Below, piece after piece: positions 9,956 to 26,385 of a DNA stretch of 37,831 nucleotides. The notes under the pieces are model-generated. The model saw only the letters and a list, made by a program, of their open reading frames with translations, had not been told where the DNA came from and ran no database searches. The stretch is from Cereibacter johrii (GTDB lineage Bacteria > Pseudomonadota > Alphaproteobacteria > Rhodobacterales > Rhodobacteraceae), in the NCBI RefSeq assembly GCF_001720585.1, contig NZ_MABH01000139.1:1-37831 (forward strand), given 5' to 3'. How positions within the stretch are numbered: the stretch's first letter is position 1; every line of letters starts with the position of its first letter. The position numbers were made by a program, and so were the translations under genes.

Positions 9956-10756
9956 ATGGCGCTGCGCTATGACGAGATCGTGCGCACGGGTCTGGCGCGG
10001 CAGGTGGCCGATCTGATCCGTGCCGCGATCATGGACGGCCGGCTCGCCATCGACGAGCGCCTTCCGAACGAGGAGGAACTGGCCCACCGCTTCGGCATCT
10101 CCCGCCCCACCGTGCGTGAGGCCCTGAAGGTGCTGGCGGCCCAGAACCTGATCCGGTCGCGGCGCGGGCCTGCGGGCGGCACGTTCGTCACCCGCCCCGA
10201 CCCTGAGGGAGTGGCGCAGGCGATCACCGATGCGGCCACCCTGCTGGTCGGAACCGGCAGCTTCGGCCGCGAGGAGATCCTCGTTGCCCGGATCGAGACC
10301 GAGACGCTCTGCTGCCGTCTGGCCGCGGCCAACCGCAGCGCCGCGGATCTGGAGCGCATGGCGGCCGAAATCGCGCTGCAACGGCAGGACGGCCTCTCTG
10401 ACGAGGACTTCTGCGCCTCCGATGTGCGGTTTCACCGCGCGATCGTCACCGCGACCGGCAACGGCGCGCTGCGCCTGATGATGCATGCGGTGATCGAGAG
10501 CTTCATTCCGGTGACCAACATGCTGATCCACCGCGACAACGAGCGCCACCGCGCTGCCGACAGCCACGAGCGCATCTTGCAGGCCATCGCCGAACGGGAC
10601 GGAGAAGGTGCGGCGCGGCTCATCCGGCGCCATCTGGAGGGGCTGCGCGGCGTTCTGGACAGCGCGCTGGAACGCCGCGCAGCCGCCCGCCCGCCACAGG
10701 TCTCCGAGGGAGAGGACAGGACAAGCTCAGACATTCCACGCCATGATGATCGTTGA
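9956..10756 (+). CDS. GntR-family regulator, FadR subfamily
   Basis: DNA-binding regulator of 266 residues. The ATG at 9956 follows AAGGAAGGA and yields a normal N-terminus. The winged helix-turn-helix spans about 11-80 (ERLPNEEELAHRFGISRP, then TVREALKVLAAQNLI). The C-terminal FCD domain (about 100-240) shows DVRFHRAIV and a later SHERILQAIAERD stretch, with the Asp/His residues that usually bind a metal and an organic-acid effector. It is divergent from the FAD-linked hydroxyacid dehydrogenase and probably controls that gene and itself. Whether it also influences the neighbouring ten-gene operon, whose end it faces, cannot be told. Confidence 0.88.
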   Translation: MALRYDEIVRTGLARQVADLIRAAIMDGRLAIDERLPNEEELAHRFGISRPTVREALKVLAAQNLIRSRRGPAGGTFVTRPDPEGVAQAITDAATLLVGTGSFGREEILVARIETETLCCRLAAANRSAADLERMAAEIALQRQDGLSDEDFCASDVRFHRAIVTATGNGALRLMMHAVIESFIPVTNMLIHRDNERHRAADSHERILQAIAERDGEGAARLIRRHLEGLRGVLDSALERRAAARPPQVSEGEDRTSSDIPRHDDR

Positions 10757-11238
10757 TCGGGACGGCAGGCCCGCGGCCGAACTCTGCGACCTCTCCCGGT
10801 CACGTTCCCGAACGCCATTGGCCCTTGTCGATATGGCCGTTCCTCGCCCCGTTGAAGCGAAACGTCATCTCGTCTGCGCTCCCCATCGGCCCGGCCCGAT
10901 GGAACGGGTCCGGTGATCCGGCAGCGCCGCCTCGACGGCGGCCGCGGTGCCAGTCAGATCGTCGGCGGCCACCGGCGCGCCATGATGCACGACGGCGGGG
11001 CGCCGGGCAGCATCCCCTGTCCTCCGCGGCGCTGAGGCAAGGCGACAGTCCTGCCGGAGCCGAGCCTCGAACGGGTGCAGCCCGTCACGGCTGACCGGAC
11101 GATCGGGACGGGCGTGCTGTCCGCCCGAGACGACAAAGCGGCATCAGCGGCCGGTGGCCCTCGGCGCGGTGCCCCGGACCATCCGCATGTCCGCTTTCCC
11201 CGTCCTGCCCGGGGCCGTGCCGATGGCAAGGGCGGGAC
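10757..11238. other. Gap between convergent genes, no clear gene
   Basis: These 482 bases separate the FadR-type regulator from the convergent end of the catabolic operon. All frames look like shuffled G+C-rich sequence. A short minus-strand run near 10807-10880 (MTFRFNGARNGHIDKGQW) has protein-like composition but no homologue that I recognise. Several short inverted repeats occur but none with a T-tract. Confidence 0.4.
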
Positions 11239-11631
11239 TCACCCGCCCCGGTTCACCTCAGCGACCGGCCTGCCCGCCTTCTTCCACTCGCCGAAACCCC
11301 CACGCAGGCTCCGCGCCTTGAGCCCCATCTCTTGCGCAACCCGGGCCGCCAGCAGCGACCGCCAGCCGCTGGCGCAGTAGAAGACAAAGGTCCGGTCCTC
11401 CGCGAAGCGCGGCTTGTGGTAGGGGCTCTCGGCATCGATCCAGAACTCCAGCATTCCGCGCGGAGCGTGGAAGGCACCGGGGATCATTCCCTCGCGCTCC
11501 AGCTCGCGCGGGTCGCGGATGTCGACCATGACGATATCCGCATCCCGATACCGGGCGGCCATGTCATCGCCCTCCACCGAAATGACGACCTCTTCGGCCT
11601 CGGCCAGCATCTCCTTGTATCCCCTGGCCAA
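11239..11631 (-). CDS. Rhodanese-domain protein (predicted sulfurtransferase)
   Basis: Single-domain rhodanese of 130 residues, starting at TTG 11631 two bases past the upstream stop; an ATG seven codons later is an alternative. The domain shows VMVDIRDPRELEREGMIPGA (35-54) and the active-site loop YCASGWRS with the catalytic Cys at 86. The WRS end of the loop is typical of single-domain sulfurtransferases. It could transfer sulfane sulfur or reduce thiosulfate-like compounds, but single-domain rhodaneses also serve as carriers. It is the last gene of the ten-gene minus-strand operon, directly behind an AhpD-like gene and the molybdopterin oxidoreductase, so it may support sulfur or redox chemistry there. 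Confidence 0.88.
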   Translation of the reverse strand: MARGYKEMLAEAEEVVISVEGDDMAARYRDADIVMVDIRDPRELEREGMIPGAFHAPRGMLEFWIDAESPYHKPRFAEDRTFVFYCASGWRSLLAARVAQEMGLKARSLRGGFGEWKKAGRPVAEVNRGG

Positions 11632-11633
11632 GA

Positions 11634-12203
11634 TCAGCGCCCCAGAGCGTAGAATTCGTCGTTCGGGCGCATGCTGGTGACATTGGCCAGCCGGTTCGAC
11701 ATGCCGAAGAAGGCCGAGATGGCAGCAATGTCCCAGATGTCATCCTCGCTGAAACCGTGAGATTTCAGCAGCGCCAAGTCCTCGTCTGCCACCTCGTGCG
11801 CGCGGACTGACACCTTGATCCCGAAATCGATCATCGCCTTCTGGCGCGGAGTGATGTCGGCCTTGCGATAGTTGATCGCCACCTGATCGGCGATCAGCGG
11901 ATCCTTGGCGCGGATCCGCAGGATCGCCCCATGCGCCACCACGCAATACTGGCACTGGTTCAGGTTCGAGGTCGCCACCACGATCATCTCGCGCTCGGCC
12001 TTGGTCAGGTTTCCGGGCTTGTCCATCAGCGCGTCGTGATAGGCGAAGAAGGCCCGGAACTCGTCAGGCCGATGCGCCAGCGTCAGGAAGACGTTGGGCA
12101 CGAAGCCCGATTTCTCCTGCACCGCCAGAATGCGATCGCGTAGATCCTCGGGCATGTCCTTGATCTCGGGGACGGGAAAGCGGCTGATGGCGGCTGCGGT
12201 CAT
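11634..12203 (-). CDS. AhpD-like / carboxymuconolactone decarboxylase-family protein (peroxidase-related)
   Basis: A 189-residue all-helical protein starting at ATG 12203. The central motif is Cys84-x-x-Cys87-x-x-x-His91 (QCQYCVVAHG), the redox pair of AhpD-like peroxidase-related enzymes; the following segment DITPRQKAMIDFGIKVS is also typical of that group. It would act as a cytoplasmic thiol peroxidase or disulfide reductase, though some family members have other roles. It lies 13 bases behind the molybdopterin oxidoreductase and 2 bases before the rhodanese gene. Its partner reductant is not encoded nearby. Confidence 0.85.
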   Translation of the reverse strand: MTAAAISRFPVPEIKDMPEDLRDRILAVQEKSGFVPNVFLTLAHRPDEFRAFFAYHDALMDKPGNLTKAEREMIVVATSNLNQCQYCVVAHGAILRIRAKDPLIADQVAINYRKADITPRQKAMIDFGIKVSVRAHEVADEDLALLKSHGFSEDDIWDIAAISAFFGMSNRLANVTSMRPNDEFYALGR

Positions 12204-12216
12204 GCGAATGTCCTTC

Positions 12217-14520
12217 TCAAGTGGGCAGGATGGCTGCCAGATGGGCGTCATAGATCCGGACCGCGTCACCCGCATCGCCCGCATGGGCTTCGATGCGGAC
12301 AAGGCAGGTATGGGCGGAGCAGCCCTGCCCGAAGGCAGAGCTGCCGATGTCGAGGGTCAGCACATTGGGATTGCCCGACAGCTCGGGCCCCTCGGCTTCG
12401 GCGGGCGTGAACCAGGCGCCGGTGGGCAGGATGGCCACGCCCGCAGCAACGCTGTCGGTGACCTGAGCGGTCGCGAGACAGGCCCCGCGTGCGTTCCAGA
12501 GCCTCACGGTCTGCCCGTCGGCGATCCCGCGCACGGAGGCGTCGCCTGGATGCAGCATCACCTGCTCGCGCCCTTCCCGCTTTCCGGCGAGGCTCGCTTC
12601 GGCGGTCTCCAGCTGGCTGTGCAACCGACCCTTCGGCTGATGCGAGATCAGATGCAGCTCCCCCGCCTGCGCCCTCCCCAGCCATTCCGCCGGTTCGATC
12701 CACGCCGGATGCGGCCCGCAGTCGGCATAGCCGAGCCGCGCCAGCGTCGCGCTGCCCAGCACGATCAGGCCGCTTTCGGTGTCGAGCGGATGCGCCTCGG
12801 GATCCTCCCGGAACGCGGCCAGATAGGTATGGTCGCGCTGCACCGGACAGGGCGCATGGCCCTGCGCCCAGAAGGTCTCGAAATCCGGCATCTCGAAATG
12901 GTGGTGTTGCTGCGCATGATTGCGGCTTTCCTCGTAGAGGTGGCGGATCCAGCCCATCTCGTCCCGACCCTCGTTGAAGGCCGCCGCCACCCCCAGCTTC
13001 CCGGACAGCGCGTTGAAGATGTCGAAATCCGACCGCGCCTCGCCTAAGGGAGCGATCGCCTGTCCCATGGCGAGGATGAAATCCGACCGCTTGTTGCCTG
13101 CCAGATCGTTGCGCTCGATCGAGGTCGAGGCGGGCAGCACGATATCGGCGCGCTTGGCCGTCGCGGTGAACATCGGATCCTGCACGATGATCGTCTCCGG
13201 CCGGGTCCAGGCCTCGGACAGGCGGTTGAGATCCTGATGGTGGTGAAAAGGGTTGCCGCCCGCCCAATAGACCAGCCGGATGTCGGGATAGCGGCGGTCC
13301 TCGCCCTCGTAGCTGTAGGGGCCGCCCGGGTTCAGCAGCATGTCGCTGATCCGCGCGACGGGGATGAAGCTGTTGATCGGCTTCGACAGTTGCGACATGG
13401 CGGGCGACTTGCCGATGGCGAAGGGCGCGCCGACCCCGCCCAGCGAGCCGTAGCCGTAGCCGACCCCGCCGCCCGGCCGGCCGATCTGGCCGATCACGGC
13501 GGCCAATCCCAGCGCGGCCCAGAAAGGCTGCTCGCCGTGATGGGCGCGCTGCAGGGACCAGCTCACCGTCAGCATGCTGCGGGTTCTAGGCAGATCGCGC
13601 GCGAGCGCCCGGATCGCCTCGGCTGGCAGGCCGGTGATGGTGGAGGCCCATTCCGCATCCTTGGGCCGGCCATCGCCCTCGCCGCGAAGATAGGCGAGAT
13701 ACAGCTCCGAGCCGCTGGTGCAGCGGGCGAGGAAGTCGGACTCCTGCTGCCCGGACCGCACGATCTCGCCCGCCAGCCCCAGCATCAGGGCCGTGTCCGT
13801 ATTGGGCCGGATCGGCCACCACTCGGCCGCCACCCAGTCCGGCAGGTCATCCTTCAGGGGCGAGACGAGGATCACCCTGACCCCGCGCTCGACGATCCGG
13901 CGCAGATAGGTTTCCAGATGATGCGCGCCGATGCCTCCGGCTTCGCTCTGTGCGGTGCGGGGCGACATCGCGCCGAAGACAACGAGCGTCTGGCTATGCT
14001 CGGCAATGCTGTCCAGCGTGTTCGCCTGCCCGCCGCAGGCACGATCGTCCCCCAGCGTGTGCCGCAGGATCACCGGCCCGGCGGCAATGGAATAGGTGTC
14101 CACATGGCCGGTGAAGCCGCCGACGAGATTGAGCGTCCGCTTCAGCAGGGTCGAGGCGTGGTGAAACCGGCCGCAGCTTGTCCAGCCATAGCTGCCCGCG
14201 AAGATCGCGGCATTGCCATGATCGGCCGAAACCCGGCGGATCTCGCCGGCGACGAGATCGAGGGCCGCGTCCCAGCTGACCGGCACGAAGCGCTCGCGGC
14301 CGCGTCCCCGCCTGTCGCTATGCTGGCGATCGGCGAGCCAGCCCTCGCGCACCATCGGGCGCATCACCCGGCGTTCCGGGCTGGCCCATGCGGGCACCGA
14401 ATGGATCAGCTCCGAGGGAGCCGGATCATGCGCGAAGGGCTCGACACCCACGATCCTTCCCTCATCGACCAGCAGGGTATAGGCGCCCCAATGGCTGCAA
14501 TGCGGAACCCGCGTAATCAT
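12217..14520 (-). CDS. Molybdopterin oxidoreductase, DMSO reductase/biotin sulfoxide reductase (BisC/TorA) type
   Basis: A 767-residue Mo-bis-MGD enzyme. The N-terminus MITRVPHCSHWGAY lacks both a twin-arginine signal and an N-terminal iron-sulfur Cys motif, so it should be cytoplasmic like BisC. The stretch GSYGWTSCGRFHHAS contains Ser115 in the position of the Mo ligand of DMSO/TMAO/biotin sulfoxide reductases. Further family features are YWAGGNPFHHHQDLNRL, FTATAKRADIVLPASTSIER and a C-terminal molybdopterin dinucleotide-binding domain (about 630-760). The usual reaction is reduction of an S-oxide or N-oxide, or the reverse hydroxylation. Its place inside a catabolic operon, 11 bases after the ThDP-enzyme gene, argues for a specific substrate rather than respiration. 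Confidence 0.9.
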   Translation of the reverse strand: MITRVPHCSHWGAYTLLVDEGRIVGVEPFAHDPAPSELIHSVPAWASPERRVMRPMVREGWLADRQHSDRRGRGRERFVPVSWDAALDLVAGEIRRVSADHGNAAIFAGSYGWTSCGRFHHASTLLKRTLNLVGGFTGHVDTYSIAAGPVILRHTLGDDRACGGQANTLDSIAEHSQTLVVFGAMSPRTAQSEAGGIGAHHLETYLRRIVERGVRVILVSPLKDDLPDWVAAEWWPIRPNTDTALMLGLAGEIVRSGQQESDFLARCTSGSELYLAYLRGEGDGRPKDAEWASTITGLPAEAIRALARDLPRTRSMLTVSWSLQRAHHGEQPFWAALGLAAVIGQIGRPGGGVGYGYGSLGGVGAPFAIGKSPAMSQLSKPINSFIPVARISDMLLNPGGPYSYEGEDRRYPDIRLVYWAGGNPFHHHQDLNRLSEAWTRPETIIVQDPMFTATAKRADIVLPASTSIERNDLAGNKRSDFILAMGQAIAPLGEARSDFDIFNALSGKLGVAAAFNEGRDEMGWIRHLYEESRNHAQQHHHFEMPDFETFWAQGHAPCPVQRDHTYLAAFREDPEAHPLDTESGLIVLGSATLARLGYADCGPHPAWIEPAEWLGRAQAGELHLISHQPKGRLHSQLETAEASLAGKREGREQVMLHPGDASVRGIADGQTVRLWNARGACLATAQVTDSVAAGVAILPTGAWFTPAEAEGPELSGNPNVLTLDIGSSAFGQGCSAHTCLVRIEAHAGDAGDAVRIYDAHLAAILPT

Positions 14521-14531
14521 CTCTCGCCCCT

Positions 14532-16082
14532 TCAGATTACGGCTTCGATCAGGAACGGCCCTCTGTGGCGGCAGGCCGCCTGCAAAAGGTCATGGAAGGT
14601 TCCCGCGGTGGTGGCACGAGCGGCCTCGACCCCCATGCCCCGGGCAAGGTTGACCCAATCCAGCGTCGGTCTGTCCAGATCGAGCATCCGCCGCGCGTTC
14701 TCGCCGGGATTCCCTGCGCCCACGTTCTTCAACTCGCCGTGCAGGATCTGATACCGCCGGTTTGCAAAGATGATGGTCACCACATCGAGGTTCTCGCGCG
14801 CCTGCGTCCAGAGGCCCTGCAGGGTATACATGCCGCTGCCATCGGCCTGCAGGCCGATCACCTTGCGGTCGGGGCAGGCAATGGCGGCGCCTGTGGCCAT
14901 CGGGATGCCGATGCCGATGGCGCCGCCGGTCAGCTGCAGGAAATCATGCGGCGCCGCCCCATAGGTCGAGCGGAAGAAATCCCTCCCCGAGGTAACGGAT
15001 TCGTCGCAGACGATGGCCTGGTCCGGCATGATCCGCGCGAGAGCGATGGCGATGGCATCCGGGGTGAGCGCACCGCCGGGCAGGTCAGGCATCTCCCGCC
15101 CCGCCAGCCGGGCAGGCGGGGCCTCGAAGGCTCCCACCGCCTCGGCCAGCGCCTCGACGGCGGCGGGCAGGTCTCCGTCGGGCCCGGCGATCTCGATCAC
15201 GGAGCAGCCTTCGGGCAACAGGCTGCCCGGCTTGCCCGGATAGGCGAAGAAGCCGACGGGTGCCTTGGCCCCGACAAGGATCACCTGCTCGGTCCCGGCG
15301 AAGGCGGCCAGCGCCTGATCGATGACATAGGGCACCCGGTCCAGTGCCACGCGTCCCGCGCCGCGCTGCATGCGACCGTTGGCCTGCTGCGCCATCACCC
15401 GCGCTCCGGTCTTCTGGGAGATGCGGTCCAGCACCTCGAGCGGCCCGGCCCGAAGAGCTGTGCCCGTGACAAGGATCGTCGTCGGCCGACCATTGCCGAG
15501 CGCGCGCGCCGCCGCGTCCACCCTCTGGCCATCGACAGGATCGGGCCGCGGCCGAAGGATGGCTTCCGGGGCGCCTCCGCTGGCGGCCGACCATGCAGCA
15601 TCGGCAGGAAGGATCAGCGTGGCGATGCCTCCGGCCCCGGTCAGCGCCGCGCGGATGGCCGCCTCGGTCCTGACCCGCAGATCGCCCACGCCCTCGATGC
15701 GGCCCACCCAGTGCGACATGGGTCGCGCGAGGCCGTCGATGTCCGAGGTCAGGGGCGCATCATGCTGAAGGTGGTAGCTGGCATGATCGCCCACCACATT
15801 CACCATCGGGCTGCGCGCGCGGCGGGCGTTGTGCATATTGGCGAGCCCGTTTGCCAGCCCCGGCCCCGTGTGCAGGAGCGTGACGGCGGGCTTCCCCGCC
15901 ATCCGCGCATACCCGTCCGCCGCGCCGGTGACCACGCCCTCGGAGAGGCCCAACACGCAACGCATCCCGGGCTGCCGGTCCAGCGCCGCCACAAAATGCA
16001 TCTCGGACGTGCCGGGATTGGCAAAGCAGGTGTCGATGCCATTGGCCAGCAGGGTTTCGCACAGGATATCCGCACCATTCAT
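14532..16082 (-). CDS. Thiamine-diphosphate-dependent enzyme, acetolactate synthase/benzoylformate decarboxylase-like
   Basis: A 516-residue three-domain ThDP enzyme. The N-terminal PYR domain has the cofactor-activating Glu48 in LGLSEGVVTGAADGYAR. The central domain starts near 185. The C-terminal PP domain has LQADGSGMYTLQGLW followed by the Asn of FANRRYQI, matching the (G)DG...N metal/pyrophosphate motif except that the first Gly is Ala. The size is nearer to benzoylformate decarboxylase than to the larger acetolactate synthase. No regulatory ilvH-like subunit is present, so a biosynthetic role is unlikely; it probably decarboxylates or ligates a 2-oxoacid made in this operon. Its ATG overlaps the kinase stop codon by four bases. 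Confidence 0.87.
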   Translation of the reverse strand: MNGADILCETLLANGIDTCFANPGTSEMHFVAALDRQPGMRCVLGLSEGVVTGAADGYARMAGKPAVTLLHTGPGLANGLANMHNARRARSPMVNVVGDHASYHLQHDAPLTSDIDGLARPMSHWVGRIEGVGDLRVRTEAAIRAALTGAGGIATLILPADAAWSAASGGAPEAILRPRPDPVDGQRVDAAARALGNGRPTTILVTGTALRAGPLEVLDRISQKTGARVMAQQANGRMQRGAGRVALDRVPYVIDQALAAFAGTEQVILVGAKAPVGFFAYPGKPGSLLPEGCSVIEIAGPDGDLPAAVEALAEAVGAFEAPPARLAGREMPDLPGGALTPDAIAIALARIMPDQAIVCDESVTSGRDFFRSTYGAAPHDFLQLTGGAIGIGIPMATGAAIACPDRKVIGLQADGSGMYTLQGLWTQARENLDVVTIIFANRRYQILHGELKNVGAGNPGENARRMLDLDRPTLDWVNLARGMGVEAARATTAGTFHDLLQAACRHRGPFLIEAVI

Positions 16083-17593
16083 GCCGGGTCTCGCTTTGTC
16101 AGAGTGTCGGCTTCGGCCCGCAGATCGGAGAGCGCCGCCCAGTAGGGCATCACCGCCTGCAGAAGACCGGTAAAGAGGCCGCGCTTGCGGGCAGCATAAT
16201 CCGCCACCGCGCCGGTCTGCGGCAGCAGGGTTTCATCCGGCGCAGCAACCCAGCGCGCCCCGATCTCGTCCGGCGTGGCCCCGAGAAGGCTACGCGCGCC
16301 GATCGCCGCAAGCCCACGCAGGCCCGCATGACCCGACGCGCTGCGCTGCACCGGGCCGCCCAGCGTCGTGGCGAGGAACTGCGCGAAATGACGATCCGCC
16401 GCCAGCCCGCCTCCCAGCGCCAGCTCTCCAGCCGCAGCCCCCAGAAGATCATGGCTGTGACAGGCGACGAAGACCAGCGCCTCGCGACCGGCCCAGGCAA
16501 TCTCGGCGGGGGTGGTGGCCGCGGTCAGCCCCAGAAGCGCGCCTCTGGCATTCGGCTCGGTCCAGGGCGCCCGTTCGCCACCCGGCTCGAGGAAGGGATG
16601 CAGGATCAGCCCCGAATAGGCGGGCGCGGCGGAGCCGGGCAGGTCCTGGAACTGCCGCGCCAGATGATGCAGCAGGGTGGCGCCATTGAAGCAGGGATGG
16701 AAGCTGATATAGCCCTCTCCCAGCGCAAAGCTTTGCACCATCGCCCCTGCCGGGGCCGCCCCCATCGCGGCGGGGTCGGAGTGCAGGCAGGCATGAATCG
16801 CACTGGTCCCGAAGATTGAGCCGGCCGTTACGCCGCGCCGGCTGCCCAGCCCCATGCCGATGAAGCTGGCCTGCACATCGCCGGGCCCCAGCAGCACCGG
16901 CAGGCCCACAGGCAGGCCAAGATCCCGCGCCACGGACGGCGCGAGCGGCGCGCGGCACTGGCCGACGGGCTCGAAGGGGGGCAGCAGGTCGAGGCCCCGG
17001 CCGAGGCCCAGAGCCTCCTGCACCTCGGGCCGCAACGCGCCATCCTGCCAACGGCCCCAGACCGGCAGGGCGGCGGTCAACTCGCCCGCGACCTGCCCGG
17101 TCAGGGCCAGCAGCAGCCATTCCTTCAGCCGCAGGGCGTGGGACATGGCCTCCAGCCGCGCGGGATCGTTTCGTTGCAGCCACATGAGCTGAAGGCTCGC
17201 CGAGGCTGCCGTCGGGCGAGACCCGGTGATCGCCTGCACCCTGTCCAGCTCCGGCGCGAGTTCGGCCATCATGTCGCGCGCGCGGCCGTCGAGCCAGGTC
17301 ATCGCCCGCCCCAGGGGTTCGCCGGCCGCATCGACCGGCCAGAGCCCGTCGCCCTGCCCGGTCAGCACCAGCCCCGCAACCTCTCCCGCCCCGGCGATCC
17401 GCGCCACACAATCGCGCAGCACGGCAAAGGCCTCGTCCCGCGTCACCGCCATGTCCTGCTCGACCCGGACGCCATCGCGCCGCAGAGCGCCATTCGCGCG
17501 CTCTGCCGTAGCGATCATCCGGCCATCGGCGGCGAAGGCTGCCGCCTTCACTGCCGTCGTGCCGGAATCGAGGGCGAGGAGGATCGGGCTCAT
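16079..17593 (-). CDS. FGGY-family carbohydrate kinase
   Basis: A 504-residue ATP-dependent sugar or sugar-acid kinase. I place the start at ATG 17593 (MSPILLALDSGTTAVKAAAF), which puts the DxGT phosphate-binding motif at the normal distance from the N-terminus; the open frame further upstream overlaps the aldolase gene. Other family features are LTGQGDGLWPVD, TWLDGRARD, the GPGDVQASFIGMG stretch and GGERAPWTEPNARG, then a second nucleotide-binding part with ELALGGGLAADRHFAQ. The FGGY kinase/2-hydroxyacid dehydrogenase pair recalls Bacillus yoaC/yoaD. Lying beside a class II aldolase, it probably phosphorylates the substrate before cleavage. Substrate unknown. Confidence 0.88.
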   Translation of the reverse strand: MSPILLALDSGTTAVKAAAFAADGRMIATAERANGALRRDGVRVEQDMAVTRDEAFAVLRDCVARIAGAGEVAGLVLTGQGDGLWPVDAAGEPLGRAMTWLDGRARDMMAELAPELDRVQAITGSRPTAASASLQLMWLQRNDPARLEAMSHALRLKEWLLLALTGQVAGELTAALPVWGRWQDGALRPEVQEALGLGRGLDLLPPFEPVGQCRAPLAPSVARDLGLPVGLPVLLGPGDVQASFIGMGLGSRRGVTAGSIFGTSAIHACLHSDPAAMGAAPAGAMVQSFALGEGYISFHPCFNGATLLHHLARQFQDLPGSAAPAYSGLILHPFLEPGGERAPWTEPNARGALLGLTAATTPAEIAWAGREALVFVACHSHDLLGAAAGELALGGGLAADRHFAQFLATTLGGPVQRSASGHAGLRGLAAIGARSLLGATPDEIGARWVAAPDETLLPQTGAVADYAARKRGLFTGLLQAVMPYWAALSDLRAEADTLTKRDPA

Positions 17594-17595
17594 GG

Positions 17596-18273
17596 TCACG
17601 ACGCCCGCCGCAGCCCTTGCTGAACCTCGGGGGTCTGCTGGCCGTAAGTCTTGAACTTCACCATCACATCGGCGATCTGCGCCTCGCTGAGGACGAGGGG
17701 CTCGCCCGCAGGCAGGCATTGCAGATAGAGCGTCGCGAGTTCCTCGACCGTTACCGCAAGGGCAAGGGCCCGTGCGATTGACACATGCGCGGCGATCACA
17801 CCGTGATGCGCCATCAGGCAGGCGCGGCGGCCTTCCAGCGTGCGCACCACCGCATCGGCCAGCTCCTGCGAACCGAAGATCTGGTAGGGCGCACAGGGGA
17901 TGGTGCCCCCCCCCGCCGCCGCGATGGAATAATGGATCGCCGGAATCTCTCGGCCGAGGATCGAGACGGCGGTGGCATTGGTCGAATGGGTATGGACCAC
18001 CGCATTCAGATCGGGCCGCGCCCGCAGGATATCACGGTGGAAACGCCATTCCGACGAAGGCAGCACATCGCCCGAGAAGGTCGCGTCCCAGTTCATCGCC
18101 ACCACATGTTCGGGCGTCAGCTTGTCGTAGGGGATGCCGGTGGGCGAGATCAGGAATCCGTCGCCATGGCGCAGGCTGATGTTGCCGGCGGTCCCCTTGT
18201 TGATGCCCAGCCGGTTCATGCTGCGGCAGGCCTCGATCAGTTCGCCGCGCAGCGCGCGTTCGTCTTCGGTCAT
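17596..18273 (-). CDS. Class II aldolase/adducin family protein
   Basis: A 225-residue zinc aldolase of the fuculose-phosphate aldolase/ribulose-5-phosphate epimerase family. The zinc ligands are His94 and His96 (VVHTHSTNA) and His157 (MAHHGVIAA), with Glu75 in SSEWRFHRD as catalytic acid/base. Gly-rich loops GTAGNISLRHGDGFLISPTG bind the phosphate in this family. It would perform retro-aldol cleavage of a phosphorylated keto sugar or sugar acid. The next gene, two bases away, is the kinase that could make the phosphorylated substrate, and the previous gene is a 2-hydroxyacid dehydrogenase that could make the keto form. Confidence 0.88.
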   Translation of the reverse strand: MTEDERALRGELIEACRSMNRLGINKGTAGNISLRHGDGFLISPTGIPYDKLTPEHVVAMNWDATFSGDVLPSSEWRFHRDILRARPDLNAVVHTHSTNATAVSILGREIPAIHYSIAAAGGGTIPCAPYQIFGSQELADAVVRTLEGRRACLMAHHGVIAAHVSIARALALAVTVEELATLYLQCLPAGEPLVLSEAQIADVMVKFKTYGQQTPEVQQGLRRAS

Positions 18274-18282
18274 CGGATCACC

Positions 18283-19332
18283 TCATTTGCAGGGATAGAG
18301 CGGCGGTTGGCCGTCCAGGATCAGGGCGATATCCTCGGCAATCATGCGCGCGCATTTCAGGGCCGAATGGCGCGATGCCCCCGCGATATGCGGCGACAGC
18401 GTGACGTTGCGCAGTTTCAGCAGCGGCCAGTCCACGGGCGGCGGTTCGAACTCGAACGTGTCCAGCGCGGCGCCCCTCAGATGGCCGCTGGCCAGCGCAT
18501 CGTAGAGCGCGGCATAATCCAGCACCTGCCCGCGCGTGGTATTCACGATATAGCCCCCGGGCTTCATCATGCCGATGCGGTCGCGGCTGATCATGCCCTT
18601 CGTCTCGGGGGTCACGCGCGGATGCAGCGTCACCACATCGCAGCGCCGCATCAGATCATCCAGATCGGCCTTCTCGAACCCGGCCGCCTTTTCGGCCTCC
18701 GTCAGGTCCTTGAACGGGTCGTAGATCACGATCCTGCAGCCGAAGGGCTGCAGAAGCCGCGCGACCCGGGTGCCGATGTCGCCATATCCCACGATCCCGA
18801 TGGTCAGTTCGGACAGCTCGGGGCCGACATGATCGTAGTGATAATAGCTCCGGCCCCAGGTGCCGTTCGCCACATCGTTATGCCCGCGGATCAGGTTGCG
18901 CGTTTCGGCCAACAGCGAGGCCACGGTGAATTCCGCCACCGCCGAGGCATTCCGCCCGGGCGCGTTGACCACCGGAATCCCCCGCGCGCGCGCCGCCGCC
19001 ATGTCGACATTGACTGGCCCGCCGCGCGAGACGGCGATCGCCTTCAGCTGCGGCGCCTGATCCATGCTGTCGGCGATGATCGGCGCCAGATGGGTCACGA
19101 GGACATCGAGGCCCCGGATGAAGTCGTAATATTCCTCGGGGCGCCCCACGAATTCGCTTACCGGCAACGTCTTGTCGACTTTCGTCGACTGTCGCTGCAA
19201 GGGCCAGGCGATTTCCATCTCGCGGAAGGTGACCTGCCGCCCGCCCAGCCGGGCCTTGAGGGCCTCGATGAACAGGCCGGGCTTCATGAACCCGTCTCCG
19301 ATGACGCCGATGGTCAGCTCTGTCCGGGTCAT
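18283..19332 (-). CDS. NAD(P)-dependent D-isomer-specific 2-hydroxyacid dehydrogenase
   Basis: A 349-residue dehydrogenase. The nucleotide-binding Gly motif is GIVGYGDIG with GxGxxG at 182-187. The catalytic Arg lies in NTTRGQVLD, the Glu in ALDTFEFEPPP and the His in LSPHIAGASRH, all at family positions. It is somewhat larger than phosphoglycerate dehydrogenase catalytic cores because of an extended N-terminal part (IAWPLQRQSTKVDKTLP). It interconverts a 2-hydroxyacid and a 2-oxoacid. Its ATG overlaps the stop of the CaiB-type gene by four bases and it ends nine bases before the aldolase gene. Resemblance to YoaD is suggested by the adjacent FGGY kinase. Confidence 0.88.
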   Translation of the reverse strand: MTRTELTIGVIGDGFMKPGLFIEALKARLGGRQVTFREMEIAWPLQRQSTKVDKTLPVSEFVGRPEEYYDFIRGLDVLVTHLAPIIADSMDQAPQLKAIAVSRGGPVNVDMAAARARGIPVVNAPGRNASAVAEFTVASLLAETRNLIRGHNDVANGTWGRSYYHYDHVGPELSELTIGIVGYGDIGTRVARLLQPFGCRIVIYDPFKDLTEAEKAAGFEKADLDDLMRRCDVVTLHPRVTPETKGMISRDRIGMMKPGGYIVNTTRGQVLDYAALYDALASGHLRGAALDTFEFEPPPVDWPLLKLRNVTLSPHIAGASRHSALKCARMIAEDIALILDGQPPLYPCK

Positions 19333-20522
19333 GTCGCATCCTTTTCGCGCGCGCCGATGCCGGGCAGGACGGCGCTGTAGTGTTCGGTATCCAGGTCATG
19401 CTCCCGCAAAACCTCGGCACTGTGTTCGGCAAATTGCGGGGGCGCACGGCGATAGCTGGCCGGGGTGCGTGACAGCTTGATCGGACTGCCGGTGCCCCGA
19501 TAGGACCCGATGTCCACGACCATCTGCCGGTGGACCGTGTGCGGATCGGCCATCACCGCATCAATGCTGCGCACCGCGCCGCAGGGCACTCCGGCCTTGA
19601 TCAGCCGATCCGACAGGCTGGCGCAGTCGAACCGGGCCAGAGCCGCCTCCAGTTCCACCTTCAGCGCGTCGCGGTTCATGTTGCGGTCGCCGTTGGTGGC
19701 AAAGCGGGGATCGTCGGGCAGGTCGGGACGCTCGATCTGACGGCAGAGGATGGCGAACTGCCGGTCGTTGCCCACGGCCAGAAAGATCGGAGCCGTGGCG
19801 GTGGCAAAGGTGTCATAGGGGCAGATGTTGGGATGCGCATTGCCCGAGGTGCCCGCGACCTTGCCCGACAGATAGTAGTTCGGCAGATGCGGATGCAGCA
19901 GCGATACCCCGCAATCGTAGAGGCTCGTCTCGACGAACTGGCCCTTGCCGCTCTGAGTGCGCTCGTTCAGCGCCATCAGGATGCCGATGGCGGCATTCAG
20001 CCCCGTCACCATGTCCACCACCGGCAGGCCGACCCGCAGGGGCTGCCCCCCGGCCTCTCCATTCACGCTCATGATCCCGCACAGGGCCTGAATGGCGGCA
20101 TCGTAGCCGGGCAGCCCCCCCATGGGGCCATCCGCGCCAAAGCCCGAGACACGGGCATGGATCAGCTGAGGAAACCGGGCCGAAAGCTCGTCGTGGCCGA
20201 GGCCCCAGCGCTCCAGCGTGCCGGTCTTGAAATTCTCGATGAAGACGTCGGCACCGGCCAGGAGCTCGAGAAGCAGCGCGCGTCCGGCCTCCTGCGCCAG
20301 ATCGACGGCGATGCCGCGCTTGTTTCGGTTCAGGCCCAGAAAATAGCTGGCCGCGCCGTCGAGGAAGGGGGGCCCCCAGCCCCGGGTCTCATCCCCGGAG
20401 GGCGGCTCCACCTTGATGACATCGGCGCCGTGATCGGCCAGGATCTGACCGGCATAGGGGCCGCCCAGCACGCGGCTGGCATCGATCACCTTGAGATTGG
20501 CCAAAGAGCCGGGGTGCAGCAT
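19329..20522 (-). CDS. Family III CoA-transferase (CaiB/BaiF/Frc type)
   Basis: A 397-residue enzyme that moves CoA between organic acids. It begins MLHPGSLANLKVIDASRVLGG at ATG 20522, giving the standard N-terminal fold (GPYAGQILADHGADVIKVEP, then GLNRNKRGIAVDL). The likely catalytic Asp is in GLPGYDAAIQALCG. Family III enzymes work through a ternary-like mechanism that differs from the two-subunit CoA-transferase encoded just upstream. Having both types in one operon implies that at least two acids are activated, or the same CoA is handed on twice. It sits 15 bases after the beta-subunit gene and overlaps the dehydrogenase gene by four bases. Confidence 0.88.
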   Translation of the reverse strand: MLHPGSLANLKVIDASRVLGGPYAGQILADHGADVIKVEPPSGDETRGWGPPFLDGAASYFLGLNRNKRGIAVDLAQEAGRALLLELLAGADVFIENFKTGTLERWGLGHDELSARFPQLIHARVSGFGADGPMGGLPGYDAAIQALCGIMSVNGEAGGQPLRVGLPVVDMVTGLNAAIGILMALNERTQSGKGQFVETSLYDCGVSLLHPHLPNYYLSGKVAGTSGNAHPNICPYDTFATATAPIFLAVGNDRQFAILCRQIERPDLPDDPRFATNGDRNMNRDALKVELEAALARFDCASLSDRLIKAGVPCGAVRSIDAVMADPHTVHRQMVVDIGSYRGTGSPIKLSRTPASYRRAPPQFAEHSAEVLREHDLDTEHYSAVLPGIGAREKDAT

Positions 20523-20537
20523 CGGGATGTCCTTCGG

Positions 20538-21299
20538 TCAGGCCGCAGGTTGCGCCGCCGCCAGATCGCGGCGCCAGTCTGCGGCAAAGGCGGGATAGGT
20601 TTCTTCGAGCTCGTCCAGCACGCGCCCGCGCAGCAGGGCCAGCGTCGCGCCATCGGGGGCCGGGGTCACGGGCGGGTCGTCGTCATGCTGGAAGGCGAAG
20701 CCCGTGGCGGCCAGCAGGTCCGCCAGCCCGCAACCGGGATGCAGGCTTTCGAGCGTGAAGCCGGGGCGGTCGCGGTCGAAGCGGAACAGCGCCTTGCTGG
20801 TCAGCAGCGCCGCCGGCCCGCCCGGCCGATGGACGCCCGCCGGGCTGGTCCCGGGGGCCGAGATGAAATCGACCTTCTCGACCATCACCCGCGGCGTGTG
20901 CTCCTCGCGGAACAGGATCACGCGGGGTACGGTGAAATAGAGATAGGCCGATCCGAAGGATCCGGGCCAGCGCACCCGGCTTTGCGGATAGCCGCCCACC
21001 CCCACCAGGTTGACATTGGCCTCGCCGTCGATCTGGCCGCCGCCCAGAAAGAACGCATCCAGCCGACCCTGCCCCGCGCAGTCGAACAGTTCGGTCGAGC
21101 CGTTGGTGAAAAAGTTATTCGCTACAGACCCCAGGATCGACAGCCGCAGCTCCGTCCGGCTTTCGTCAAGCGCGCGGCGCAGCATCGATCCCGCGGCGGG
21201 CATCGGCGAGGCCGCCCCGACCGCCACATGACGCACCCCTTCCAGAAGGCGGGCGATGGTCCAGATCAAGACTTCGCGCGGCAGCGGGGCGAGGATCAT
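20538..21299 (-). CDS. CoA-transferase, subunit B (family I, glutaconate/3-oxoadipate type)
   Basis: A 253-residue beta subunit starting MILAPLPREVLIWTIARLLE. Recognisable parts are HVAVGAASPMPAAGSMLRR, a segment LGGGQIDGEANVNLVGVGG (about 85-103) and RVILFREEHTPRVMVEKVDF, followed by RFDRDRPGFTLESLHPG, a pattern found near the C-terminus of these subunits. The size and the separate alpha gene fit the glutaconate CoA-transferase/CatJ group. The ATG overlaps the stop of the alpha-subunit gene (ATGA), so equal synthesis is likely. The acyl substrate cannot be predicted. Confidence 0.83.
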   Translation of the reverse strand: MILAPLPREVLIWTIARLLEGVRHVAVGAASPMPAAGSMLRRALDESRTELRLSILGSVANNFFTNGSTELFDCAGQGRLDAFFLGGGQIDGEANVNLVGVGGYPQSRVRWPGSFGSAYLYFTVPRVILFREEHTPRVMVEKVDFISAPGTSPAGVHRPGGPAALLTSKALFRFDRDRPGFTLESLHPGCGLADLLAATGFAFQHDDDPPVTPAPDGATLALLRGRVLDELEETYPAFAADWRRDLAAAQPAA

Positions 21300-22102
21300 G
21301 CCTGCACCCCGGCCCGGGCGGCCATGTAGCCCGCAAAGCCCTCGGCGCTGCGGGCGGCGCTGGCATAGCGCATGATTTCAGCGGTGTCGGTGGCATATTC
21401 GCCCCACAAGCCATAGGGCCAGGCCCCGCGCGGCGCCTCGGCGATTTCCGCCACATAGAGCGCGGGCAGCGTGCCGGCGGCCGTGGTCTCGTCCGAGAGC
21501 AGGTTCCGGCGGACTATCCGCTCCACCGTCACCAGCGTCAGGGCGGAGGCGTAGGCCATCGCCGCCAACTCACGCCGCCGCCCGATCCAGACATTCCCGA
21601 ACCGGTCCGCCAGGGGCGCATGGAAGATCGCAATGTCGGGCGTGATCGCCGGGATCAGCACGACCGGATCGCCGCCCGCGCCGAACGGGTTGTCGATCAC
21701 CCGCCAATCGTCGCGGTGGCGCAGCAGATCCGAGCCGATCAGCCCGCGGATCGACAGGAAGGGGCTGCCCTTCTGTGCCGCCATCAGACCGGCATGGATC
21801 GCGGGACAGGTGGCGTCGCGCAGGCGGATGGTGCCATCCTTGACCGCCTGGTTGAAGCGCGGCGCACCTCCCGCCTCGCCGAGGCTGACCGCGCTGGTCT
21901 CCACCATGGCCACGAGCCCGGCCCCGATCAGCTGATCGACCTGAAGGCCCCCGGTCGGCACGCAGACCAGATGCAGGTCGCCTGCGCCATTCTCGATAAG
22001 CGGGCGCGTCATGGCCATTGAAACGCCCGCATAATCGACCGGCAGCGCGATGCGCATGCCCGGCCTGACGCAGCTCGCCATCGCACGAAGATCGCCCGGC
22101 AT
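21296..22102 (-). CDS. CoA-transferase, subunit A (family I, glutaconate/3-oxoadipate type)
   Basis: A 268-residue alpha subunit and the first gene of the ten-gene operon. A very strong ribosome-binding sequence, GGGAGGGGGAGCGG, precedes the ATG at 22102. Family features include GDLHLVCVPTGGLQVDQLIG (about 40-59), the QAVKDGTIRLRDATCPAIH stretch, NPFGAGGDPVVLIPAITPD and HAPLADRFGNVWIG. The enzyme would activate an incoming acid as its CoA thioester using acetyl- or succinyl-CoA. Its promoter is at 22183-22212, with a palindromic operator between promoter and gene, so it should be controlled by the IclR regulator of the divergent operon. Confidence 0.85.
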   Translation of the reverse strand: MPGDLRAMASCVRPGMRIALPVDYAGVSMAMTRPLIENGAGDLHLVCVPTGGLQVDQLIGAGLVAMVETSAVSLGEAGGAPRFNQAVKDGTIRLRDATCPAIHAGLMAAQKGSPFLSIRGLIGSDLLRHRDDWRVIDNPFGAGGDPVVLIPAITPDIAIFHAPLADRFGNVWIGRRRELAAMAYASALTLVTVERIVRRNLLSDETTAAGTLPALYVAEIAEAPRGAWPYGLWGEYATDTAEIMRYASAARSAEGFAGYMAARAGVQA

Positions 22103-22150
22103 TCCGCTCCCCCTCCCGCACCGCTGCTCCGTCGGATCCGCGGCTTCTTA

Positions 22151-22169: not shown

Positions 22170-22182
22170 CCTTTCCGAATTA

Positions 22183-22343: not shown

Positions 22344-23486
22344 ATGGCAGAGACCTTGGCCTGGCGCAAACCGCGGCAGCGTATGGCACCCCCGGCCCCG
22401 AGACAGGCCAGTCGCGAGATGATCGGCTCCAGCATCTCGATGCGCAGCGTGGTCAAGACCTATGGCGCATTCTGCGCGGCAGACCGCATCAGCCTGGATG
22501 TCGAGCCGGGAGAGTTCATCACGCTGCTGGGCCCCTCGGGCAGCGGCAAGACCACGCTTCTGAACCTGCTGGCCGGGTTCCAGACCATCGACGGCGGTGA
22601 AATCCTGATCGATGGCAGGTCCATCGCCCATGTGCCCACCCATCGGCGCGGCTTTGGAATGGTTTTCCAGAGCTACGCGCTGTTTCCCAACATGACGGTG
22701 TCGCAGAACGTGGCCTTCCCGCTGCGGATGGCAGGGGTCGACCGTGCCACCAGCGACCGCCGCGTGGCCGAGACGCTCGAGATGATGCGGCTGTCGGACC
22801 ATGCCCGCAAGACCCCGTTCGAGATGTCCGGCGGCCAGCAGCAGCGCGTGGCCATTGCCCGGGCGATCGTGATGCGCCCCAAGGTCGTGCTGATGGACGA
22901 GCCGCTGTCGGCGCTGGACCGCAGGCTCCGCGAATCGATCCAGATCGAGATCCGCGCCCTGCACCAGACCATCGGCAGCACGATCCTGTTCGTCACCCAT
23001 GACCAGAGCGAGGCCCTGACCATGAGCGACCGCATCGCGGTCATGGACAAGGGCCATATCATCCAGGTCGGGCGCCCGGTGGATATCTACCGCCAGCCGC
23101 AGAGCCGGTTCGTGGCCTCTTTCGTGGGCGAAAGCAACCTCATCGAGGCCGAGATCCTGGAGAACCGGGGCGGCACGATGCGCCTGCGCAGCCGCTCGGG
23201 TCTGGTGTTCGACGCCCAGAGCCGCGATGCGTCCGCCAGCGGCACGGCCACGGTTCTGGTGCGCCCCGAGCGGATCGCCCTGCGCGAGACGGCAACCGCA
23301 GACAGCGTGGCTGCCACCGTCACCTCGGCCCTGTTCATGGGCGAGACCCTGCGGATCGAGGCCGAGATGGCCGGGGGCGAGACCCTCCTGATCCGTTGCC
23401 AGGACACGGCCGCCCGCAGCCTGCCGCAGATCGGCAGCCGGATCCATGTGAGTTGGGGCGCTCAGGATTGCTGGGTGCTGGCATGA
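22344..23486 (+). CDS. ABC transporter ATP-binding protein, polyamine/opine (PotA) type
   Basis: A 380-residue ATPase. The ATG at 22344 follows GAGGGAGGACGCA. Walker A is GPSGSGKTT (63-71), the signature MSGGQQQR (161-168), Walker B VVLMDEPLSALD (181-192) and the H-loop FVTHDQSEAL. The C-terminal TOBE-like domain (about 285-375, with VLVRPERIAL) is normal for importers of this type. The extra 30 N-terminal residues rich in Arg and Pro are unusual but the ribosome-binding site supports them. It energises the fused permease encoded by the next gene, whose ATG overlaps this stop codon. Confidence 0.92.
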   Translation: MAETLAWRKPRQRMAPPAPRQASREMIGSSISMRSVVKTYGAFCAADRISLDVEPGEFITLLGPSGSGKTTLLNLLAGFQTIDGGEILIDGRSIAHVPTHRRGFGMVFQSYALFPNMTVSQNVAFPLRMAGVDRATSDRRVAETLEMMRLSDHARKTPFEMSGGQQQRVAIARAIVMRPKVVLMDEPLSALDRRLRESIQIEIRALHQTIGSTILFVTHDQSEALTMSDRIAVMDKGHIIQVGRPVDIYRQPQSRFVASFVGESNLIEAEILENRGGTMRLRSRSGLVFDAQSRDASASGTATVLVRPERIALRETATADSVAATVTSALFMGETLRIEAEMAGGETLLIRCQDTAARSLPQIGSRIHVSWGAQDCWVLA

Positions 23487-25302: not shown

Positions 25303-26385
25303 ATGCTTGAACGGAACGACCTGAAGGGTCTGGTGTCGGCCCTGGCCGTCACCACACTGCTCGCGGGGCCGGTGGCTGCGCAAAGCAACGAAGTCATCAT
25401 GCAGGATCCCGGCGGCGGCTATGGCGATGCGCTGCGCAAGGTGATGTACGACCCCTTCACCGAAGAAACCGGCATCGAGGTGGTCACCGTGCAGGAAGCG
25501 CGGTCGGGCCCGCGGATCAAGGCACAGGTCGAGGCCGGCAAGACCGAATGGGACCTGACGTTCATCTTCGATCAGGAGACGAAGCTGCTCGGCGACTGCT
25601 GCCTGGCCGACATCGACTACAGCATGATGTCGGAGGAGGCGCAGAAGACGCTCGCCGTCATGCCCGAGAACCTGAAGCGGCCGAAGGGGGTGGCGCTGCA
25701 GGTGATCGGCGTGGGACTGGTCTACAACAAGGATGTCTACAGCGGCGGTGAGAAACCGGCCAGCTGGGCGGATTTCTGGGATCTCGAGAAGTTCCCGGGC
25801 CAGCGCTGCCTTCCCGCCTGGCCGCGCTTCGTGATGGAAGCCGCGCTCATGGCCGACGGCGTGCCAAAAGACCAGCTCTACCCGCTGGACATGGACCGCG
25901 CGCTCAAGAAGATCGCCGAGATCAAGCCGCACGTCTCGAAATGGTGGACGACCTCGGCCCAGCCGCCGCAGCTGCTTCTGGATGGCGAGGCCGACATGTG
26001 CATGGCCTATACCGGCTCCAGCTCGAAGCTGGCACTGGAAGGGGCCCCGATCGAGGTCGAATGGAATCAGGGCTTCGTCTATTACGACTTCTTCTCGATC
26101 CCCAAGGGGGCGCCGAACTACGAGAATGCGATGAAGCTGCTGTCCTGGCGGCTGGAGCCGCAGCGCGCGGCCGAACTGACCTCGAACTTCCCGGTGGCGC
26201 TGCCCTCGTCGGTGGTGTTCGAGGCGGCGGATCCCGCCATCAGCGTCTACTGGGCCAACACCCCCGCCAATGTGTCGCGCGCGATCGAATGGAGCCCGGA
26301 CTACTGGGGCGCCATGACCGAGGACGGCACCATGACCAACGAGGAACATGGTCAGGAACAGCTGAACGCCCTGCTGGCGCAATGA
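25303..26385 (+). CDS. Periplasmic solute-binding protein, PotD-like (ABC importer)
   Basis: A 360-residue binding protein starting at ATG 25303 with GGAGGAGGATG just upstream. The signal peptide is about 1-26 (GPVAA/QSNEV). The mature sequence starts with a beta strand and PGGGYGDALRKVMYDPFTEETGI, typical of the polyamine/opine/iron family, and includes WDLTFIFDQETKL, GVGLVYNKDVY, SWADFWDLEKFPGQR and AYTGSSSKLALEG. The ligand site cannot be read with confidence. Since the divergent operon contains CoA-transferases and 2-hydroxyacid enzymes, an organic acid or sugar acid is more likely than a polyamine. Confidence 0.9.
   Translation: MLERNDLKGLVSALAVTTLLAGPVAAQSNEVIMQDPGGGYGDALRKVMYDPFTEETGIEVVTVQEARSGPRIKAQVEAGKTEWDLTFIFDQETKLLGDCCLADIDYSMMSEEAQKTLAVMPENLKRPKGVALQVIGVGLVYNKDVYSGGEKPASWADFWDLEKFPGQRCLPAWPRFVMEAALMADGVPKDQLYPLDMDRALKKIAEIKPHVSKWWTTSAQPPQLLLDGEADMCMAYTGSSSKLALEGAPIEVEWNQGFVYYDFFSIPKGAPNYENAMKLLSWRLEPQRAAELTSNFPVALPSSVVFEAADPAISVYWANTPANVSRAIEWSPDYWGAMTEDGTMTNEEHGQEQLNALLAQ

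Follow-up and report, generated by a model that had tools for sequence, protein, structure and literature searches.

Introduction

The described systems closest to the locus reported here are the dihydroxyacetone phosphate (DHAP) shunt, the catabolism of L-fucose, the catabolism of 3-mercaptopropionate, and the coenzyme A (CoA)-transferase-fold enzymes AibAB and IpdAB. The locus is a run of ten minus-strand genes at positions 11239-22102 of contig NZ_MABH01000139.1 from Cereibacter johrii (assembly GCF_001720585.1); the whole 37,831-nucleotide stretch, one contig of a 4.5 Mb draft genome, is referred to below as the window. We find that the ten genes, a divergent importer and an IclR regulator form a 14-gene block whose order is conserved in further bacteria from soils and the sea. 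We tentatively suggest, at somewhat less than even confidence, that the block is a self-contained catabolic regulon whose imported substrate is most likely a thioether or S-oxide with a short polyol or sugar, which would yield DHAP and propionyl-CoA.

According to the portions of PMC10986504 and PMC6079011 that describe it, the DHAP shunt consists of MtnK, MtnA and a class II aldolase. This shunt and the disposal of 5-deoxyribose (MtnK-MtnA-Ald2 and DrdK-DrdI-DrdA in the same portions) share with the operon a kinase and a FucA-like class II aldolase that yields DHAP and an aldehyde, and one relative of the operon has DHAP-shunt-type MtnK and MtnA genes in front. The window differs from the DHAP shunt in having an FGGY kinase (PfkB in relatives) and a dehydrogenase, with CoA, thiamine diphosphate (ThDP) and molybdenum (Mo) enzymes in addition. 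L-fucose catabolism (FucK, FucA) likewise places an FGGY kinase before the aldolase, whereas the operon has no isomerase gene and its aldolase falls under the cut-off of the fucA equivalog.

The catabolism of 3-mercaptopropionate and dithiodipropionate (Mdo, Act, Acd), as outlined in parts of PMC6370202 and PMC5373536, has in common with the operon a family III CoA-transferase, an AhpD-type protein and a predicted propionyl-CoA outlet. A desulfinase and a dioxygenase are the enzymes of 3-mercaptopropionate breakdown in these parts, and a section of PMC5373536 places a family III CoA-transferase, desulfinase, dioxygenase and AhpD protein in one cluster of Advenella. The CoA-transferase-fold pair of the type found in the operon adjoins Acd- and Mdo-like genes in several Betaproteobacteria; unlike that pathway, the window has sugar-phosphate and Mo enzymes and no desulfinase or dioxygenase. 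AibAB (3-methylglutaconyl-CoA decarboxylase) and IpdAB (steroid-ring hydrolase) are alpha/beta proteins of the CoA-transferase fold without a catalytic Glu, like the pair in the window; in the relevant part of PMC5380842, IpdAB shows no CoA transfer, has no catalytic Glu and is assigned as a hydrolase. The initial annotation of the window knew no pathway with this gene set, and none was found in the open-access literature, where an absence is weak evidence.

Results

Gene families, operon structure, conservation, the missing Glu and the exchange of modules were all read from the sequences. The ten genes fill 11239-22102, tightly packed with gaps of -4 to 15 bases, namely 2, 7, 11, -4, 2, 9, -4, 15 and -4 counted from the rhodanese end. 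A re-reading of the sequence thus confirmed the run of the initial annotation, with no gap above 15 bases, and its family names stood up to Pfam and NCBIfam searches. Three of the four 4-base overlaps that it had counted are certain; the fourth, between kinase and aldolase, exists only with the kinase start GTG 17599, not with ATG 17593. Divergent from the ten genes, an ABC importer and an IclR gene occupy 22320-27248 (plus strand) and are part of the conserved unit, which supports the earlier view of one catabolic operon with its own importer and regulator.

Conservation was assessed in named genomes of Alpha- and Betaproteobacteria, using the best 80 of at least 385 relatives (loci L017-L096), which are the basis of all counts out of 80. 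These counts come from tblastn, not from a gene caller, with identity thresholds set by us and genes beyond contig ends scored as absent. The 80 loci are not independent: two (L079, L086) are contigs of one metagenome-assembled genome (MAG), and many are close relatives (Bradyrhizobium, Tardiphaga, Phreatobacter). Some loci of the full collection are duplicated, such as L010/L027 and L012/L024. The gene caller missed the CoA beta gene of L043, L063, L081, L082 and L096, gave almost nothing for L101 and L145, and passed over single genes elsewhere, for example CoA alpha in L016 and L018; for L081, L082 and L096, long open reading frames were read as well, L101 was dropped, and L145 is the L081 contig again. 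Many neighboring genes were named by eye unless a family search is given.

All ten genes occur together at 13 of the 80 loci and all 14 at 12, in the latter with the same order and with protein identities to the window of roughly 55-94%. The ten-gene order proposed for a search in other genomes was therefore found, and because it recurs, the run is not a chance arrangement. Among the genomes of the order, 8 of 292 carry a relative of the CoA beta gene (E ≤ 1e-20), the C. johrii genome included; the other seven loci comprise three with all 14 genes, one with 11 up to the contig end, one five-gene subset (CoA pair, CaiB, ThDP, AhpD) and two with a distant CoA pair only. The block lies on plasmid 1 in Paracoccus denitrificans PD1222 (PDEN_RS22930 to PDEN_RS22860), is plasmid-borne without the rhodanese in Sagittula sp. 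P11, and is annotated with the same 14 genes at 90-99% identity on plasmid pRSKD131A of Cereibacter sphaeroides KD131, to which window positions 11162-27273 align over 16,112 bases at 95.5% DNA identity. All 14 genes are under purifying selection between the window and the KD131 copy, the ratio of nonsynonymous to synonymous substitution rates being 0.04-0.27 for each. Fourteen plasmid records contain a relative of the CoA beta gene, and nothing was found in viral contigs. Given this recurrence across genomes and plasmid records, the block is a unit that is plasmid-borne in several strains. Scattering of the genes in homologous loci, which had been named as evidence against a common system, is seen in part, but the subsets occur as recurring modules with non-orthologous replacement.

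The first two genes of the operon encode an alpha subunit (21296..22102, minus strand as for all ten genes; Pfam PF01144; nearest structures AibA, IpdA and GctA) and a beta subunit (20538..21299). Both match Pfam CoA_trans, so that the family I fold and the alpha/beta gene pair are present. Residue 55 of the beta subunit aligns with AibB Cys56, a place fixed by alignment to AibB C56 variants, which we take to be the site of the catalytic Glu of glutaconate CoA-transferase (GctB Glu54). All 114 distinct beta sequences that were aligned, the window's included, carry Ile, Val, Leu or Met there (120 rows; loci missed by the gene caller were left out), compared with Cys in AibB and Gly in IpdB. The predicted structure of the beta subunit (mean predicted local distance difference test score 71.5) is closest to AibB (Z 17.6), IpdB (16.8) and GctB (16.2), followed at Z 12.1 or less by further family I enzymes; the pair differs from AibAB and IpdAB in sharing only 18-27% identity with them over the aligned part. 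Judged by its catalytic residue, the pair is not a competent CoA-transferase. Of the two kinds of CoA-transferase in the initial annotation, the family I assignment is therefore not supported, the fold being nearest AibAB and IpdAB, and the family III assignment holds: the CaiB protein (19329..20522; Pfam PF02515, 411.3 bits) has an Asp within its PVVDMVTG motif (167-174), presumably the catalytic Asp of family III CoA-transferases, and it scores below the cut-off of every substrate-specific NCBIfam model. Since the pair lacks the Glu and CaiB keeps the Asp, only CaiB is left as the likely CoA-donor step, and we suggest that it is the activating enzyme and that the pair is a lyase or hydrolase acting on the CoA ester.

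The CoA pair has relatives at E ≤ 1e-60 in 70 of the 385 genomes sampled from the class. At L098-L115, a wider family of the pair and CaiB accompanies what look by eye like genes for an acyl-CoA dehydrogenase, an enoyl-CoA hydratase or a MaoC-like protein, which seems to make up a general acyl-CoA module. A link of the pair to cobalamin or nucleosides was rejected, the pairs beside cobalamin genes in L015 and L016 being 56-58% relatives without other operon genes; in L016 (7938-9610) a nucleoside hydrolase gene is overlapped by 4 bases by the CoA beta gene, with cobalamin genes adjacent. The set downstream of L065, which looks thiamine-biosynthetic by eye, was treated as a mere neighbor.

After CaiB follow a D-2-hydroxyacid dehydrogenase (2HADH; 18283..19332; Pfam PF02826 and PF00389), a class II aldolase resembling L-fuculose-1-phosphate aldolase (17596..18273) and an FGGY sugar kinase (16079..17593, or to the GTG at 17599; Pfam FGGY_N and FGGY_C). 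The top NCBIfam match of the kinase, XylB, lies far under its cut-off. The aldolase matches FucA structures (E 3.5e-70), fails the L-fuculose-1-phosphate aldolase equivalog (TIGR01086, 246.8 bits versus 400.25), scores 263.0 versus 264 for subfamily PRK08087, and also resembles ribulose-1-phosphate aldolase in NCBIfam. The earlier proposal that the kinase acts before the aldolase is supported, as a FucA-like aldolase is found at all 39 loci that have a kinase of either type. The FGGY kinase occurs at 19 loci, 18 of them with 2HADH, and a PfkB kinase at 20, always accompanied by a short-chain dehydrogenase/reductase (SDR). The 38 loci with the binding protein divide into 17 with FGGY, 19 with PfkB and two with neither (one of them, L037, a short contig), none having both, in counts that are inflated by the relatedness of Bradyrhizobium-type loci. 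We read the 2HADH/FGGY and SDR/PfkB sets as a probable non-orthologous replacement of the dehydrogenase-kinase pair before one aldolase step. The presence in L014, L039 and L050 of a ketol-acid-reductoisomerase-like gene and a transporter of the TRAP (tripartite ATP-independent periplasmic)-TAXI type beside the CoA pair, CaiB, ThDP and AhpD genes suggests that a different reductase type can replace 2HADH; in these loci the ketol-acid-reductoisomerase-like gene lies outside branched-chain synthesis.

FucA produces DHAP and lactaldehyde, and the nearness of the aldolase to FucA, like the strict kinase-aldolase coupling, would also suit a sugar-acid pathway without sulfur. In this alternative, which is close to the initial annotation, an aldonate or polyol acid would first be oxidized; the FGGY kinase would then phosphorylate it, and cleavage would release DHAP and a 2-hydroxyaldehyde. 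The acid product would be oxidized by 2HADH, a GlcD-like oxidase or an aldehyde dehydrogenase, and after its decarboxylation by the ThDP enzyme it would enter CoA metabolism. The GlcD-like oxidase adjoining the block at several loci is in line with such a pathway. However, it leaves unexplained the S/N-oxide reductase and the rhodanese, as well as the fact that this CoA pair adjoins a desulfinase and a dioxygenase at other loci, and we consider it a possible but somewhat unlikely explanation.

A second question is whether the operon serves one function at all. CaiB is found at 44 of the 80 loci and the ThDP gene at 28; the Mo enzyme and AhpD are coupled at 40 of the 44 loci with the Mo enzyme, which stands without the aldolase at seven loci (contig ends truncate some of these), and the five-gene subset of L014 has no sugar genes. 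The behavior of the Mo enzyme and AhpD and the L014 subset would suit an operon that places two unrelated functions under a single promoter, with 2HADH, FGGY and the aldolase serving a sugar pathway and the CoA pair, CaiB, ThDP, Mo enzyme, AhpD and rhodanese an acyl-CoA or sulfoxide pathway. Against this, 36 of the 38 binding-protein loci hold one kinase set, and there is a single importer and a single regulator for all genes, so that we regard the division as decidedly unlikely. Other ThDP copies in genomes whose block misses the gene (L117-L125) were considered and were not informative.

Two single cases bear on what the aldolase cleaves. At L081, a CoA pair, CaiB, aldolase, TRAP transporter, ThDP, AhpD, AcuI and CoA ligase are preceded by a gene for methylthioribose kinase, which is divergent (TIGR01767, 463.7 versus 275), and by an MtnA-like gene (above the subfamily cut-off with 275.5 versus 271, below that of equivalog TIGR00512 with 207.8 versus 279) that stops 2 bases short of CoA alpha. 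In the MAG represented by L079 and L086, genes resembling methylthioadenosine (MTA) phosphorylase (217.4 versus 274.85) and deoxyadenosine deaminase lie ahead of the CoA pair. Both cases would agree with an aldolase whose substrate is a pentulose 1-phosphate with a terminal substituent. The C. johrii genome has one MtnA outside the window; as a clue this was rejected, since MtnA elsewhere was found in 6 of the 11 genomes examined, that of L081 among them, and showed no visible relation to operon type.

The ThDP enzyme (14532..16082) carries the name acetolactate synthase. It scores 770.6 versus a cut-off of 363 for PRK07586 (acetolactate synthase large subunit) and 123.9 versus 538.35 for the biosynthetic-type model. 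Its closest solved structures are benzoylformate decarboxylases, whose Glu and His, which we take to be catalytic, have counterparts in Glu48 and His71 of the window enzyme. The ThDP enzyme of the initial annotation is thereby supported, as one of the 2-oxoacid-decarboxylase type. Glyoxylate carboligase is not known to have such a Glu and was rejected because Glu48 is present, and an oxalate-type route by CaiB and the ThDP enzyme was set aside since the best matches are benzoylformate decarboxylases. The same residue bears on a pentulose or pentitol pathway in which the aldolase would give DHAP and glycolaldehyde, the latter would be oxidized to glyoxylate, carboligation by the ThDP enzyme would give tartronate semialdehyde, and 2HADH would form glycerate. 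The 2HADH and GlcD-like oxidase near the aldolase and the similarity to ribulose-1-phosphate aldolase are consistent with this route; it is opposed by Glu48, by the absence of a carboligase model among the 25 best NCBIfam matches listed and by CoA genes left without a role, and we consider it very improbable.

A plasmid of Diaphorobacter carries, in this order, an aminotransferase gene, a 53% homologue of the ThDP gene, and genes for a succinate-semialdehyde-dehydrogenase-like enzyme and an M20 aminoacylase, an arrangement that would be expected for conversion of an amino acid through a 2-oxoacid and an aldehyde to an acid; in the window, 2HADH could feed the same 2-oxoacid step. An intact aldehyde dehydrogenase gene lies beside the IclR gene at 8 of the 80 loci. 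The window copy (27353..28583, plus strand; pieces of 74-75% identity in two frames) is decayed by a frameshift and in-frame stops, so that C. johrii would have to rely on a different enzyme or on a copy at another place. The ThDP gene and CoA pair of L082 and L088 (Burkholderiaceae) have ectoine-type genes upstream, the DoeA and DoeB models being above cut-off in L088.

The operon ends with a Mo-bis(molybdopterin guanine dinucleotide) enzyme (12217..14520), an AhpD-like peroxidase-related protein (11634..12203; TIGR01926, 221.9 versus a cut-off of 81.8) and a 130-residue rhodanese-like protein (11239..11631; Pfam PF00581), the last found at 15 of the 80 loci at an identity of at least 55%. 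The Mo enzyme is above the cut-off for S/N-oxide reductases of the BisC type (TIGR00509, 1120.7 versus 1017.55), and inspection of its N-terminus shows no extension. We infer the link to sulfur from relatives of the operon, in whose sequences further sulfur enzymes are predicted. Homologues of 3-sulfinopropanoyl-CoA desulfinase occur at 7 of the 80 loci, above the model cut-off in L092, L082 and L075; in L075 the gene (666.3 versus 600) lies upstream of the CoA pair and ends 33 bases before CoA alpha. Cysteine-dioxygenase-like proteins are found at 6 of the 80 (Pfam CDO_I just over cut-off in the two tested), and in L080 and L089 the CoA pair is preceded by a methionine gamma-lyase gene. The nearest approach to such a sulfur neighbor at a complete ten-gene locus is L052, where eight of the ten operon genes adjoin a dioxygenase-like gene.

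The acrylyl-CoA reductase AcuI is present at 10 of the 80 loci. Its gene lies within the CoA-pair gene run in L071, L081 and L097, beside ahpD in L096, and close downstream of the block in genomes G276, G014 and G678; L097 combines AcuI, the CoA pair, the Mo enzyme and AhpD in one operon. The AcuI model cut-off is passed in L071 and barely in G276. The window holds a 22-residue acuI remnant (10731..10796, plus strand; 64% identity, E 5e-6 in a two-region search), and one AcuI-like gene, under the cut-off, is found elsewhere in the genome. The AcuI and desulfinase outlets would both yield propionyl-CoA.

The importer consists of an ABC transporter ATPase (22320 or, the start being uncertain, 22419..23486; Pfam ABC_tran and TOBE_2), a permease in one long protein (23483..25267; conserved in place and orientation, with a permease annotation in KD131) and a substrate-binding protein (25303..26385; SBP_bac_8), followed by the IclR-family regulator (26493..27248; Pfam IclR_C and HTH_IclR), all on the plus strand. 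The best match of the binding protein is PDB 3rpw (639.8 bits), and mannopine-, GABA- (gamma-aminobutyrate) and agropine-type binding proteins come next. This ranking, the inclusion of N-oxides in the Mo enzyme model and the opine-oxidase-like genes (by eye) adjoining the operon in L052 are points in favor of a nitrogen substrate, an opine or amine N-oxide that the Mo enzyme would reduce before the carbon skeleton is split by the steps proposed below. The sulfur enzymes that accompany the CoA pair at other loci speak against it, as do the whole-block loci, which show no amine-specific gene, and we find it unlikely. The three opine-oxidase-like subunits of L052 (2042-4828, minus strand) lie beside a TRAP transporter and a RidA-like protein.

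Among the neighbors of the operon, a GlcD-like FAD-linked oxidase (8435..9838, minus strand; Pfam FAD_binding_4 and FAD-oxidase_C) is an occasional partner of the block, with relatives at L011, L029, L049, L065, L137 and KD131. It adjoins the operon together with a FadR/GntR regulator (plus strand, about 9956-10756 by alignment with KD131), and the pair is kept in KD131. Farther away, the minus strand of the window carries genes for an FHA-domain protein (1495-3006), a ribonucleotide reductase large chain (33841-36108) and ATP phosphoribosyltransferase, hisG (36684-37394; TIGR00070, 173.6 versus 75.75).

Discussion

For the thioether or S-oxide substrate that we favor, the following pathway may be proposed. 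The ABC importer would take up a small molecule, either an acid or an amino-acid conjugate and in all likelihood a thioether with a short polyol or sugar, and the BisC-like Mo enzyme would reduce an S-oxide (or N-oxide) to the usable form. The polyol or ketose end would then pass through a dehydrogenase, the FGGY kinase and the FucA-like aldolase to give an aldehyde and DHAP, by the same logic as in the DHAP shunt or the breakdown of fucose. The acid side would start from a 2-hydroxy acid (elsewhere a 2-amino acid), which would be converted to a 2-oxoacid, from which the ThDP enzyme would form an aldehyde and an aldehyde dehydrogenase the acid. CaiB would load CoA onto this acid, the alpha/beta pair would cleave the CoA ester by decarboxylation, hydrolysis or beta-elimination, and the end product would be propionyl-CoA, formed through acrylyl-CoA reductase or, in Betaproteobacteria, 3-sulfinopropanoyl-CoA desulfinase. 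We infer all these reactions, their order, the role of sulfur and the place of 2HADH, which may act at the polyol end or on the acid side. Eight of the operon's ten genes have a role in this model, and the other two, for rhodanese and AhpD, stand outside the proposed steps. The model retains the kinase-aldolase and ThDP logic of the initial annotation, which had an imported acid phosphorylated and cleaved by the aldolase, and adds to it the sulfur chemistry and the propionyl-CoA outlet taken from relatives.

Several observations weigh against this proposal. The 13 ten-gene loci show no sulfur-specific neighbor besides the Mo enzyme and rhodanese, the BisC model takes in N-oxides too, and the further relatives of the binding protein bind opines, GABA and polyamines, not known sulfur compounds. 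Acd and Mdo have no match in the window (the rest of the genome was not searched for them), so that the genes specific to 3-mercaptopropionate breakdown are missing there. The same holds in the window for MtnK-, MtnA- and MTA-phosphorylase-like matches, and with them for the gene set of the DHAP shunt; MtnK and MtnA are present at only one of the 80 loci, and the MTA-phosphorylase-like and deaminase-like genes are confined to one MAG and are below the equivalog cut-offs. The AcuI proteins of G014 and G678 are below the model cut-off. Loci of the Bradyrhizobium type have no CaiB or ThDP gene, the ThDP copies elsewhere in four such genomes being 48-58% identical. The wider family of the CoA pair accompanies ordinary acyl-CoA genes. 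In L082 and L088, an aminotransferase and an aldehyde dehydrogenase stand beside the ectoine genes, which makes their link to the ThDP enzyme weak.

In a more specific form of the proposal, which we consider improbable, the operon would degrade S-ribosyl-type conjugates of a C4 acid at both ends; candidate substrates would be S-ribosylhomocysteine, remnants of S-adenosylhomocysteine, or their 2-hydroxy analogues or sulfoxides. The sugar end would yield DHAP, and the homocysteine end would pass through 2-oxoacid decarboxylation to 3-thiopropionyl-CoA, from which the pair would form acrylyl-CoA and a thiol by beta-elimination; to our knowledge, such an elimination has not been described for the CoA-transferase fold. 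The route may then represent a third member of the DHAP-shunt family, besides those for 5-deoxyribose and methylthioribose.

The block is a conserved gene set for a nutrient that we did not find named, is present also in laboratory strains such as P. denitrificans PD1222 and C. sphaeroides KD131, and has a binding protein with a close relative of solved structure (3rpw). The block also points to a large group of proteins now called CoA-transferases that should not carry the transferase annotation. If the substrate is indeed an organosulfur compound, the block would represent a single route for the turnover of such compounds that combines CoA chemistry with the cleavage of sugar phosphates and the reduction of S-oxides.

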